The translations under genes and the position numbers were made by a program. From assembly GCA_016779205.1 (NCBI GenBank), contig JADHOC010000004.1, positions 62,001 through 126,000 on the forward strand: DNA of 64,000 bases. Direction: 5' to 3'. Shown here one piece after another: positions 782-10,894 of the stretch (position 1 is its first letter; each line of letters opens with the position of its first letter). The notes beneath the pieces are model-generated. The model saw nothing but the letters and a program-made list of their open reading frames with translations, did no database searches and was not told the DNA's origin. The DNA comes from Planctomycetota bacterium (GTDB lineage: Bacteria > Planctomycetota > UBA1135 > GCA-002686595).

Positions 782-1963
782 TCAGCGTCGATCTCCCTCG
801 GGAAGCCGCTCGCCGGCCGCTCGCCACTCGGCCGCGAGCAGGTCCACCATCCGCCCGTAGGAGGCCACCCCCTCCTGGCCCTGGGCCCGCAGGTAGGCGT
901 CGTTCACCGCCGAGGCCGCGCGGCTCGCTGCGGGGGACCGCTCGCGGTCCCAGAATCGCGCACGCTCCTCCATGGCGGACCGAATCCGAGGGTCCAGCTG
1001 ATCGATCCGAGCCGCGAGCCGCTCCCGGTCCGCGCGCCCCAGGGCGCCGAGCACGTGGCCGAGCGCGAGCAGCCGCGCCGCGGACCGCACCTCGGCGCTG
1101 GAGGACCGGCTCCCCACGCGCCACGCCAGGTAGTTGGCCTCGTCCTCCCGGGCCCAGCCCTGGGCGTGGGCCAGCTCATGGCACGCGGTGAACAGGAGGT
1201 CCGGCTCAGGCAGGTGCGCTGCCACGTGGGCCTCCTGGGTGAAGGGGCTGAAGATGCCGCTGATGCCGGCCCCCACGATGACGCCCGAGAGGGCTGGCCG
1301 GACGAGGACCCCGGAGCCGGCCCCGAGCGCGGGCTCCCGTTCGAGGGCCTCCCGCCAGGACGCCGCCGCCAGCTCCAGCGCGGCTCCCGGATCCAGCGCC
1401 CCGGAGGGTCCCGGCGCGGCGAGGTAGGGCTGGAGCTGGCTCTCCAGGGCTCCGGCGAGCCGGTCGAGCTCCGGGGCCGAGGCGCCGGCGGGCGCCAGGT
1501 CCAGGGAGTCCGCCAGCGGGAGCCGCGAGTAGTTGAGGCCCCAGAGGAACAGGAAGAGGAGCGCCCCACCGCCGCTCGCCGCGAGCCCGCACCGGAGGAC
1601 CGCGCCGGCACCACCGCGACGCCAGCCCCGGCGCACGAGCCAGCAGAGGACCACGGCCACCACGAGGATCCCCACCTCGGACAGGGACAGGAAGGGACCG
1701 GCGCGCCGTGGGGCGCCGGTCAGGGCCGCCCAACCCCGGGCGGCCTCCCCGACGAGGCCCGCGACCCTCGGGTAGATCCCGCGCGCGAAGTGCGCCTCGA
1801 CCACCCCGGGGCCCACACGGGCGACAGCCGCGAGCAGCAGCGCCGCGGCCCAGGGCGCGAGGGCCACGACCCACGGCACCAGGGGCCGTGAATGGAGCGG
1901 CGGCCGGCGCCCCCCTTCGGGATCGCCGGCCGCCTGCTGCTCCGGAGGTCCGGGGTCGCTCAC
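782..1963 (-). CDS. DUF3810-family membrane protein with HELAH zinc-peptidase-like motif
   Basis: 393 residues from a GTG whose GTGA overlaps the stop of the upstream actin gene, so translation is probably coupled. Hydrophobic segments lie near residues 30-50, 95-111 and 130-142, and the third runs into WGLNYSRLPL, a hallmark of DUF3810. A soluble domain follows, carrying HELAH (residues 262-266) and a downstream acidic stretch (EDEAN, 273-277) that could supply the third zinc ligand of a gluzincin-like peptidase. This suggests a membrane-anchored zinc peptidase; activity has not been established for the family as far as I know. An in-frame upstream extension to 2233 overlaps the actin gene and is rejected. 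The coupling suggests a shared job with the filament protein. Confidence 0.82.
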   Translation of the reverse strand: MSDPGPPEQQAAGDPEGGRRPPLHSRPLVPWVVALAPWAAALLLAAVARVGPGVVEAHFARGIYPRVAGLVGEAARGWAALTGAPRRAGPFLSLSEVGILVVAVVLCWLVRRGWRRGGAGAVLRCGLAASGGGALLFLFLWGLNYSRLPLADSLDLAPAGASAPELDRLAGALESQLQPYLAAPGPSGALDPGAALELAAASWREALEREPALGAGSGVLVRPALSGVIVGAGISGIFSPFTQEAHVAAHLPEPDLLFTACHELAHAQGWAREDEANYLAWRVGSRSSSAEVRSAARLLALGHVLGALGRADRERLAARIDQLDPRIRSAMEERARFWDRERSPAASRAASAVNDAYLRAQGQEGVASYGRMVDLLAAEWRAAGERLPEGDRR

Positions 1964-3027
1964 TTGAGCTGCTCCCAGTACTCCTCGGGCATGTCGTGCG
2001 CGATCTTCAGCGCGCCGTTCGCGCCGCCGTACATGGGCTCCTCGATGCGGATCACGTTGCCGCCGCCGAGGGTGCGCAGCATCTCCTCGGAGATGGCGCG
2101 GTCCAGCCCGCGGATCTGGCTGCCGCCACCGGCCAGCAGGACGCGCCCCTTGAGCTTGTCCTGGAACTCGGGGTCGAAGGTACTGATCAGCTTGCCGAGG
2201 CCCTCGACGATGGGCGGCACGATGCGCTGGCACGCGGTGCGCACCTGCTCGGTGATCTCGAACTCGGTGGGCTTACCCTCCACGGGGAGCTCGGTCGTGA
2301 TCTTCTCCGTGTTCACGTCGACCGTGCTGTGGCGCTCCTTGATCGCCTTGATCATCTGCTTGGTGAACTGCGCCTGCGGGAAGGCAGCGGCGATCTCCTT
2401 GCCGAGCTCCTCGTCCACGAAGTCACCCGCGGTGTTCATGGTGATCTGGTCGGACTCCTCCGGCATGGTGCCGTGCATCCGGCAGAGGTCGACCGTGCCC
2501 GCGCCGATGTCGATCACCAGCACGTCCTCGAGCATGTCCAGCCCGTAGGCGACCGAGAAGGGCTCGGAGCAGAGCATCACGGAGTCCACCGACTCGCGCG
2601 CGGCCTGGAGGATGGCGTCCTTGTTGTTGATCTGCGCCTGGGCGGGCACCCCGATGACGGCGTAGACGAGCTCGTCCTTGCGCGGCTTCGAGAGCCGGAC
2701 GATCTCCTTGACCAGGTCCATCGCCGCGCGGCGCGAGTCCTGGTTCTCAGAGCCGTCCGCGTTGAACTTGAGCACGCCGTGCTCGAGGGGCCGGTGGAGG
2801 TTGAGCGAGAGGCGCTTCTCGCGGGCCTCGGCGCCGAAGAGCACCTCCTTCTTGAGGAGCTTCATCGCCACCGGGTCCTTGGGGTAGCCCACGAAGGACT
2901 CGATGGTCTCGCGGACGCCGTTGCTCGCGGTCACCGAGGTGCGGGAGGTGCCGAGGTCGATGCCCACATAGAGGACGCCGCGGTCCTTTCCGGTCCCTTC
3001 GGTGTCGTCAGTCTGGATGTTCGTCAT
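1960..3027 (-). CDS. MamK-like bacterial actin
   Basis: 355 residues from the ATG at 3027; an in-frame start at 3093 would add 22 residues lacking actin character. All actin/Hsp70 nucleotide-binding motifs are present: phosphate-1 GIDLGTSRT (22-30), connect-1 AVIGVPA (123-129), phosphate-2 VIDIGAGTVD (171-180), adenosine VLLAGGGSQIRG (296-307) and connect-2 GGANGALKIA (334-343). It matches magnetosome MamK better than MreB, ParM or FtsA: FVGYPKD near residue 46, SEPFSVAYGLD (154-164), and an ending close to MamK's ALRLAEELPPQYW. The acidic residues in SEPF and DIGAGT, needed for MamK ATPase activity as I recall, are kept. No magnetosome genes are nearby. The likely role is a cytoplasmic ATP-driven filament that positions some other structure. 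Confidence 0.85.
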   Translation of the reverse strand: MTNIQTDDTEGTGKDRGVLYVGIDLGTSRTSVTASNGVRETIESFVGYPKDPVAMKLLKKEVLFGAEAREKRLSLNLHRPLEHGVLKFNADGSENQDSRRAAMDLVKEIVRLSKPRKDELVYAVIGVPAQAQINNKDAILQAARESVDSVMLCSEPFSVAYGLDMLEDVLVIDIGAGTVDLCRMHGTMPEESDQITMNTAGDFVDEELGKEIAAAFPQAQFTKQMIKAIKERHSTVDVNTEKITTELPVEGKPTEFEITEQVRTACQRIVPPIVEGLGKLISTFDPEFQDKLKGRVLLAGGGSQIRGLDRAISEEMLRTLGGGNVIRIEEPMYGGANGALKIAHDMPEEYWEQLK

Positions 3028-3184: not shown

Positions 3185-3685
3185 TCAGGAACCGGACTTG
3201 TTGACGCTTTCCCGCAGTTCCAGGTTGGCCTGGAACAACTGGGACATGAACGCGCGCCGCTTCTCGTCCGGAGGGGTCGCGGGCAGCTGGGGCTTCACGG
3301 CGTCGTAGAAGCGCGCCTCGGTCTCGGAGGGCTGGTCGCGGTCCGCGAGGCTGCGGATCTGCTCCTCCTGCTCCGTGAGGAGCCGGGAGAGCTTCTCGAT
3401 GCGGCGCTGCAGGAGATCGGTTTCGCGTTGGCTCTGCCGGGCCTCAGCGGGGGTCGGCGCCTCGGGCGCGCTCGGGGGCGCCGCCCGCCGAGGCACAGCG
3501 GGCACGCCGGCGTCGGCCGGGGGCTGAACCGCGGGGGAGCCCTGGCGGGCCCGCTCCAGGTTCAAGCCACGCAGACCGCTCCCCGTGGCGCCCGTGCGAC
3601 GGGCGCCCGCTCGGCGAGTCGGGCCAGGGAGGACGACGCGGTGCACCACGTTGCCCTTCGCGCCCAGCTTCTTGAAGCCAGCCAT
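3185..3685 (-). CDS. Basic/Pro-rich protein with C-terminal coiled coil, upstream of the MamK-like gene
   Basis: 166 residues from the ATG at 3685, chosen because AGGGA sits 4 bases upstream; in-frame starts at 3697 and 3733 exist. No family recognised. The N-terminus is small and basic (MAGFKKLGAKGNVVHRVVLP), followed by an Arg/Gly/Pro-rich, probably disordered region. A charged heptad-like helix follows around residues 80-115 (with ETDLLQRRIEKLSRLLTEQE), then an ending rich in polar residues. No signal peptide or membrane segment. It precedes the MamK-like gene on the same strand with a 157-base gap and could be a filament partner or adaptor; that is inferred from position and architecture only. 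Confidence 0.6.
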   Translation of the reverse strand: MAGFKKLGAKGNVVHRVVLPGPTRRAGARRTGATGSGLRGLNLERARQGSPAVQPPADAGVPAVPRRAAPPSAPEAPTPAEARQSQRETDLLQRRIEKLSRLLTEQEEQIRSLADRDQPSETEARFYDAVKPQLPATPPDEKRRAFMSQLFQANLELRESVNKSGS

Positions 3686-3867
3686 ACGATCCCTCATTTC
3701 TACCATGGCAGCGTGCAGTAGGCGGTCGGTCACTGTCAGCGCGGCGCCCCTTCTACATCAGGGACAGCCGCGGGTGACGCCGCGCTCGATTTGACTCCGT
3801 TGGGGACCGCCGAAGCGGGGGTCAGCAGGGGGATTCTCTGGGGCCCTCCTCCTCCGGAAGGCCCGCG

Positions 3868-9787: not shown

Positions 9788-10894
9788 TTGAGCGAGTCAG
9801 ACGACCTCACCGTCCAGGCCGGCCACCGGCCGACCGAGGACGTCATCCAGCGCCTGGTCCAGGCCCTGGAGGCCGGGGCCGTCGTCTCCATGCCCACGGA
9901 GACCGTCTACGGCCTCGCCGCGCGGGCCGACCAGCCCGAGGCCCTCGAGCGCCTGGCCGCGGTCAAGGGAACGAAGGACCCCCGGCCGTACACCTGGCAC
10001 GTGGGCGGCGCGGAGGCCCTCGCCGGGCGCGCCGCGCTGCCGGCCCTGGTGGAGCGGGCGACGGAGCGGTACTGGCCCGGCCCCCTGACGCTCGTGGTCC
10101 GCTCCTCGGCCCCGGGGCTCGACCTCATCACGGCCGACGGCTGGACGGGTGTCCGCGCCCCCGCCCATGAGGCCACCGGCGCGGTCCTCAGCGCGGCCCC
10201 CTTCCCGGTGGTGATGACCAGCGCCAACCGGGCGGGCGAGTCGCCAGCCACCGACGCCGAGACGGTTCGTCAGATCTTCGCCGATGGTGAACTGGCGGCC
10301 GTGCTCGACGGCGGCCCTTGTGCCCTCGGCGAGGCCTCCACGGTGGCGCGGCTCGGCCCCGGTGGGATAGAACTGTTGCGAGAGGGAATCGTGACCATGG
10401 AAGAGATCAAGCGCACGGCCGGTCAGCGGCTGCTTTTCGTCTGCACGGGCAACACCTGCCGTAGCCCCATGGCAGAGGCCCTGGCTCGCACCGCGCTCCG
10501 CAGCGCCCTCGAAGCCAAGGACGAGGCCGACTTCGGGTTCATGATCGGATCGGCCGGGGTCTACGCCGGGCCCGGCGCTCCCGCGTCTCCCCAGGCGATC
10601 GAGGCCCTCGCCGAGCGCGACATCCCCCTCGGGGATCACCGCTCCACCCCCGCCCTCGAGGCGCTCGTCGCCGACCAGGACCGCGTCTACTGCATGACCG
10701 CGTCGCACCGCGACGCGCTCCTCTCGATGCTGCCCGAGGGCGCCGCGGCCAACGTCGAGCTCCTCGACCCCGCCGGAGAAGACGTGCCCGATCCCTTCGG
10801 CGGTTCGCTCGAGATCTACCGCCAGACCGCCGACGCCATCTCCCGCATGGTGGACGCGCGCATGGCGGACTGGGTCGGCCCGCCGCCGAGCTGA
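9788..10894 (+). CDS. Fusion of threonylcarbamoyl-AMP synthase (TsaC/Sua5) and arginine-type low-molecular-weight phosphatase
   Basis: 368 residues from a TTG; no earlier or later start fits better. Residues 15-200 form a YrdC/Sua5 domain (SMPTETVYGLAA at 34-45, KGTKDPRP at 60-67, SANRAGESP at 145-153), which makes threonylcarbamoyl-AMP for tRNA t6A modification. Residues 214-360 are a low-molecular-weight tyrosine-phosphatase fold with the C-X5-R loop CTGNTCRS (Cys219, Arg225) and general-acid loop DPFGGS (Asp335). Thr223, where most tyrosine phosphatases have Ile, is the residue known to give YwlE-type enzymes selectivity for phospho-arginine. One continuous frame joins both domains by a short linker (about 200-213). 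B. subtilis carries the counterparts as separate neighbouring genes (ywlC, ywlE). Confidence 0.92.
   Translation: MSESDDLTVQAGHRPTEDVIQRLVQALEAGAVVSMPTETVYGLAARADQPEALERLAAVKGTKDPRPYTWHVGGAEALAGRAALPALVERATERYWPGPLTLVVRSSAPGLDLITADGWTGVRAPAHEATGAVLSAAPFPVVMTSANRAGESPATDAETVRQIFADGELAAVLDGGPCALGEASTVARLGPGGIELLREGIVTMEEIKRTAGQRLLFVCTGNTCRSPMAEALARTALRSALEAKDEADFGFMIGSAGVYAGPGAPASPQAIEALAERDIPLGDHRSTPALEALVADQDRVYCMTASHRDALLSMLPEGAAANVELLDPAGEDVPDPFGGSLEIYRQTADAISRMVDARMADWVGPPPS

Follow-up and report, generated by a model that had tools for sequence, protein, structure and literature searches.

A MamK-type actin and its coiled-coil partner point to an uncharacterised bacterial cytoskeleton in Planctomycetota

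Introduction

The bacterial actin MamK has been studied almost only as an organiser of magnetosomes. There, the MamK filament works with dedicated coiled-coil or acidic adaptors that place its cargo, i.e., MamJ in magnetospirilla and the network of Mad20, Mad23, Mad25 and Mad26 in Desulfovibrio magneticus RS-1 (PMC12748827). Deep-branching magnetotactic bacteria contain a second actin-like protein, Mad28, which is likewise paired with coiled-coil proteins. In Mad28 a serine replaces the aspartate of the phosphate-2 motif, and the identity to MamK is 15-17% (PMC10653835). MamK-related actins are also already known in non-magnetotactic relatives, the described example being the three-stranded BeeR of Verrucomicrobiota (PDB 8r2n, PMC11929497), a PVC bacterial actin of unknown function.

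Here, we describe a MamK-type actin gene and its neighbours in a planctomycetote that shows no sign of magnetosomes. The window, i.e., the whole stretch of DNA that was analysed, comprises 64,000 nucleotides of contig JADHOC010000004.1 (GenBank assembly GCA_016779205.1).

Results

A complete MamK-family actin

The actin gene, its ATPase motifs and the gene that overlaps its stop codon are the following.

1960..3027, minus strand: MamK-type actin gene, 355 aa, with ATG at 3027 and TGA at 1960-1962
2944..2958, minus strand: phosphate-1 motif DLGTS, residues 24-28; D24 and G26 invariant and T27 nearly so in the homologue alignment
2557..2568, minus strand: connect-1 motif SEPF, residues 154-157; E155 corresponds in the alignment to the Glu in the SEPF of MamK
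2494..2511, minus strand: phosphate-2 motif DIGAGT, residues 173-178; Asp kept, unlike in Mad28
2119..2133, minus strand: adenosine motif AGGGS, residues 299-303, from the sequence and the homologue alignment
2008..2028, minus strand: connect-2 motif GGANGAL, residues 334-340, from the sequence and the homologue alignment
782..1963, minus strand: DUF3810 gene, which overlaps the stop codon of the actin gene (GTGA)

The window protein is a full-length actin of the MamK family in which no ATPase motif is missing. It passes the existing NCBI model of the MamK subfamily (NF040964) with 427 bits at a cut-off of 400, and the match extends over model positions 1-330 of 335. With the same model the MamK of AMB-1 scores 542 bits and a planctomycetote magnetosomal MamK, from genome G463, scores 404 bits. 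The best match among solved structures is the Magnetospirillum MamK 5ljw (E=6e-82, residues 9-354). In a multiple alignment the identity is 40% to AMB-1 MamK and 36% to the planctomycetote magnetosomal MamK; BeeR shares 30% of the residues, and the MreB encoded in the same genome shares 25%. A sequence-only reading of this DNA had placed a MamK-like actin at exactly these coordinates, leaving the strand unstated, and had claimed that all five nucleotide motifs are present and that the similarity to MamK covers the whole chain; all of this was confirmed. In an alignment of 28 homologues the active-site residues of the five motifs are invariant or nearly so. The dN/dS values of 0.04-0.08 in comparison to three congeners argue for a real and strongly constrained gene.

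Other actin families fit less well. The score with Pfam MreB_Mbl is 66 bits, and the protein remains below the MreB cut-offs (66 bits versus 293, and 57 versus 366). ParM and Alp profiles gave weak matches of 12-15 bits. In contrast to BeeR-type proteins, which have an N-terminal extension of 30-50 aa, the window actin has about 16 residues ahead of its GVLYVGID strand, and it reaches 201 bits with the BeeR model at a cut-off of 530. An identity with Mad28 was also considered; the retained DIGAGT argues against it, a comparison made with the motif given in PMC10653835.

The DUF3810 gene was rejected as a component of the module; it adjoins the actin gene only in the window genus and in close relatives, and is therefore probably not part of it. 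A scan for sigma-70 promoters and terminators revealed nothing, which was also the outcome with shuffled sequences.

The host genome and magnetosome genes

The host genome comprises 4.3 Mb on 36 contigs and is 90.5% complete; a separate, true MreB is encoded elsewhere in it. No magnetochrome domain (PF18509) was found in this 90.5% complete genome, and the best match to MamB has 100 bits, below the cut-off of 350. The actin is thus not encoded in or alongside a detectable magnetosome gene cluster, as the sequence-only reading had stated for the window. The completeness of 90.5% leaves a small chance of an overlooked cluster; the listed relatives are also magnetochrome-negative, and magnetochrome domains were found in just 4 of 392 Planctomycetota genomes.

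A genuine planctomycetote magnetosome cluster is present on contig C33 of G463 (loci L201 and L202). It encodes MamE, M, N, P, A, B and MamK, together with FeoB and DtxR-type regulators, and was the source of the planctomycetote magnetosomal MamK used for comparison. The ORF upstream of this mamK encodes a protein with a long Lys/Glu-rich repeat, different from the partner protein described below, and no credible match to the C-terminal domain of that partner was found in the cluster. A further gene of the window (9788-10894, plus strand) encodes a Sua5/YrdC domain (tRNA modification) fused to a low-molecular-weight protein tyrosine phosphatase domain.

Distribution and phylogeny

Far from being special to the host lineage, the system occurs across much of the phylum. 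In the host's class, 92 of 110 genomes encode an actin above the MamK cut-off, and it is chiefly members of the small-genome family f5 that do not. In an even draw of 294 Planctomycetota genomes, 112 have an actin match at E<1e-60; these belong to many families and often contain two copies.

About a dozen of the 145 actin matches in the phylum are weaker and BeeR-like. BeeR-like actins, a family described from Verrucomicrobiota, are thus found in some planctomycetote genomes too. At locus L197 the gene follows a response-regulator receiver gene, and at locus L196 it follows a small uncharacterised ORF, which could encode a BeeR partner.

In a quick tree that included MreB, the window actin was placed beside MamK and outside MreB. 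In a careful maximum-likelihood tree, which has long branches and contains two magnetosomal MamKs and no Mad28, 40 non-magnetosomal planctomycetote actins formed one clade (95/97). Both magnetosomal MamKs, of AMB-1 and of G463, lie outside this clade, so the window actin does not branch with them. MamK and the planctomycetote clade together are set apart, at 100/100, from BeeR and from two BeeR-like proteins of planctomycetotes. Residues specific to the clade include Y122, D168, R183, H185, M225 and P248. The window actin shares with MamK the whole chain and the ATPase motifs, and differs from it by its own clade, clade-specific residues, a partner gene of its own, and a genome in which magnetosome genes were not detected.

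A partner gene upstream of the actin

Directly upstream of the actin, with 157 bases between the two genes, lies a small gene with the following features.

3185..3685, minus strand: partner gene, 166 aa if counted from the conserved ATG at 3685, found upstream of the actin in relatives and supported by dN/dS
3188..3442, minus strand: partner C-terminal domain (CTD), a phylum-wide signature; its middle is diverged in the window copy
3620..3655, minus strand: GNVVHRVVLPGP, a short N-terminal motif conserved among the partner proteins of the window genus

The ORF reaches up to a GTG at 3733, and the ATG at 3685 is the probable start because of its conservation. The dN/dS values of 0.26-0.42 in comparison to congeners indicate a real gene that evolves faster than the actin; both genes are under purifying selection.

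The window partner has a disordered, proline-rich N-terminus, followed by the CTD with its coiled coil and IFEANL motif. Comparison of 40 loci showed that nearly all encode, at the upstream position, a protein whose N-terminus varies and whose C-terminus is shared. The consensus of the latter in relatives is LERRIxKL..GVASIYRxVQGL..KKxxMxxIFEANLxL, in which the coiled coil LERRIxKL is followed, in most proteins, by the two other elements. The N-terminus is a short disordered tail bearing GNVVHR in the window genus, and a GGDEF-type domain (Pfam) in much of family f1; helical domains take this place in other families and in most other classes. Apart from GGDEF, no named family in Pfam or NCBIfam was found to be related to the planctomycetote partner; with MamJ and the Mad proteins, the parallel is one of working principle.

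That the GGDEF-type partners are active diguanylate cyclases was rejected, since the catalytic signature is degenerate: in ten aligned proteins the position has sequences of the VVDDR or MxDDR type, and the GG[DE]EF signature is absent. A PilZ-like appearance of the N-termini at loci L175, L177 and L198 was dropped, as Pfam gave no confirmation for L175 and L177. AlphaFold2 predicted confident helices at 95-132 and 155-181 of the window partner and no overall fold (pTM 0.35); for a relative of the helical type the model was mostly helical (pTM 0.38).

Co-occurrence of partner and actin

A search of the Planctomycetota genomes with a CTD profile yielded matches in 78 of the 294 sampled genomes. 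The actin is encoded in all 78, and the 182 genomes that lack it gave no match. The associated Fisher value of 1.5e-44 ignores phylogeny and is thus only descriptive. Of 109 CTD copies, 87 directly precede a MamK-type actin gene in the same orientation. Further genomes contain more divergent partners at this position, which were spotted by eye or by a weak score. Where a genome encodes two actins, it tends to encode two partners as well, and these differ in their N-termini (L175/L176, L198/L199). Family f28 (loci L187-L190) has the actin alone, with neither a recognisable partner nor a kinase.

In some genomes CTD copies are found away from the actin. In the host they are located at C18:57 kb (GGDEF) and at C4:34 kb (helical type), and the two proteins concerned belong to loci L161 (C4, about 34.4 kb) and L037 (1046-2086). 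Such copies are as expected if the CTD were a reusable filament-binding tag.

A tyrosine kinase gene beside the pair

In ten other families, a gene for a polysaccharide-type tyrosine autokinase adjoins the actin-partner pair. In families f2, f6, f7 and f8 of the class, it immediately precedes the partner gene and shares its orientation, and in several other classes it occupies the matching place and is divergently transcribed. All seven kinases tested exceed the cut-off of TIGR01007, the model of the polysaccharide biosynthesis tyrosine autokinases (BY-kinases). In a phylum-wide search, all of the 18 best matches were at the actin-partner locus, with a profile that had itself been built from linked copies and with match positions compared by hand with the actin positions; overall, the linkage was seen in 20 genomes. 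Of these 20 locus-linked kinases, 15 are divergent and 5 are on the same strand. The neighbourhood has thus been kept in spite of a reversal of orientation, which argues for a functional link. In contrast to known BY-kinases, the linked kinase stands beside an actin and its partner, an arrangement that was not found in the literature searched.

In the window family the kinase is unlinked, and the kinase matches of the host are on other contigs. No BY-kinase was found beside the additional CTD copies that family f1 contains (L161-L168). The sequence-only reading had named conserved non-magnetosomal neighbours as a point that would support it; those seen are the upstream partner and, in other families, the kinase.

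Discussion

The actin and its coiled-coil partner point to an uncharacterised bacterial cytoskeleton. We think it probable, from comparative sequence data, that the actin forms an ATP-driven MamK-type filament outside magnetosomes and that the upstream gene encodes a dedicated partner, the N-terminus of which would couple the filament with some cargo, site or signal. Homology and the intact motifs suggest that the actin polymerises with ATP. Co-occurrence, gene order and CTD conservation suggest that the partner docks onto the filament, or regulates it, via its CTD. More tentatively, the variable N-terminus may tie the filament to its client, an adaptor role that would resemble that of MamJ or the Mad coiled-coil proteins in magnetosomes. 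Because the kinase adjoins the pair in ten other families, what the filament originally carried, or was regulated by, was most likely the envelope or exopolysaccharide machinery; in the window family the linkage of the kinase gene has been lost. This unlinked kinase, the partnerless actin of family f28, the low pTM of the models and the diverged CTD of the window partner are points against the proposal. The sequence-only reading had suggested a separate cytomotive system in this lineage. The separateness held, in the form of a non-magnetosomal clade with neighbours of its own, and the restriction to the lineage did not, as the clade spans much of the phylum; the cytomotive activity and the cargo are what we infer.

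A more far-reaching version is rather speculative, and we regard it as possible though not likely: magnetosomal MamK and BeeR would be joined by a third cytoskeleton of the MamK level, i.e., an ancient module of actin, adaptor and kinase, in which swappable adaptor N-termini and kinase signalling would steer a filament that places envelope polysaccharide machinery or other cargo.

Other explanations have to be weighed against the proposed filament and partner. The near-universal presence in the class, family f5 excepted, would suit an MreB-like actin that serves as a scaffold for the wall or the division machinery, in a phylum that either does not need the canonical division genes or does not have them; in P. 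limnophila, division proceeds in the absence of FtsZ, and mreB, ftsI and ftsW can be deleted (PMC6952346). However, the host and many genomes of the class have a separate MreB, 182 of the 294 phylum genomes lack a MamK-type actin, most members of family f5 divide without it, and mre, fts or peptidoglycan genes are not among the neighbours, so that we consider this role unlikely. Somewhat less probable still is a partner that is merely a co-transcribed regulator and never touches the filament, the actin working with unknown factors. The GGDEF-type regulatory domains of some partners and the retention of a lone actin in family f28 would be in agreement with this, but the finding of the CTD only in genomes that have the actin, the tracking of actin paralogues by partner types, and the conservation of the C-terminal part and not of the N-terminus speak for contact.

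An actin with a small adjoining adaptor is also the layout of ParM and ParR, and a few partners have weak, sub-threshold matches to a ParS-like antitoxin domain, which would suit a DNA segregation filament with a DNA-binding adaptor. Yet the ParM profiles match weakly, a DNA-binding domain never reaches significance in the partners, and the actin is carried throughout a class, in many genomes with one or two copies. A tblastn search of a plasmid collection with the window actin gave no match on any record, which argues against a link to plasmid segregation; we consider this explanation very improbable. The idea of a relic or cryptic magnetosome actin, left over after magnetosome loss, is already largely refuted, and we give it hardly any credence: although MamK is the closest characterised relative and a few planctomycetotes do have magnetosome genes, their magnetosomal MamK is outside the clade, magnetochrome domains are very rare in the phylum, the window actin is under strong purifying selection, and it has a conserved partner of its own.

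In the open-access literature, to which our search was confined, we found no account of a MamK-type clade in planctomycetotes that has a partner of its own and a kinase. That a clade at the level of MamK, with its own conserved adaptor, is common in a class of non-magnetotactic bacteria suggests that MamK-type filaments have organised cells in other ways as well, and such roles may precede or parallel magnetosomes. For Planctomycetota, at least some of which have no canonical division machinery, this adds a concrete cytoskeletal candidate, and the CTD is a defined handle for finding filament-binding proteins. Two cultured strains encode the actin, namely, Planctomycetes bacterium Poly30, which is congeneric with the host and has an actin 85% identical to that of the window, and Pla163, which belongs to the same family. 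Family f5, largely devoid of the MamK-type actin and with an MreB-like match retained in several members, constitutes a natural set of knock-outs for phenotypic comparison.
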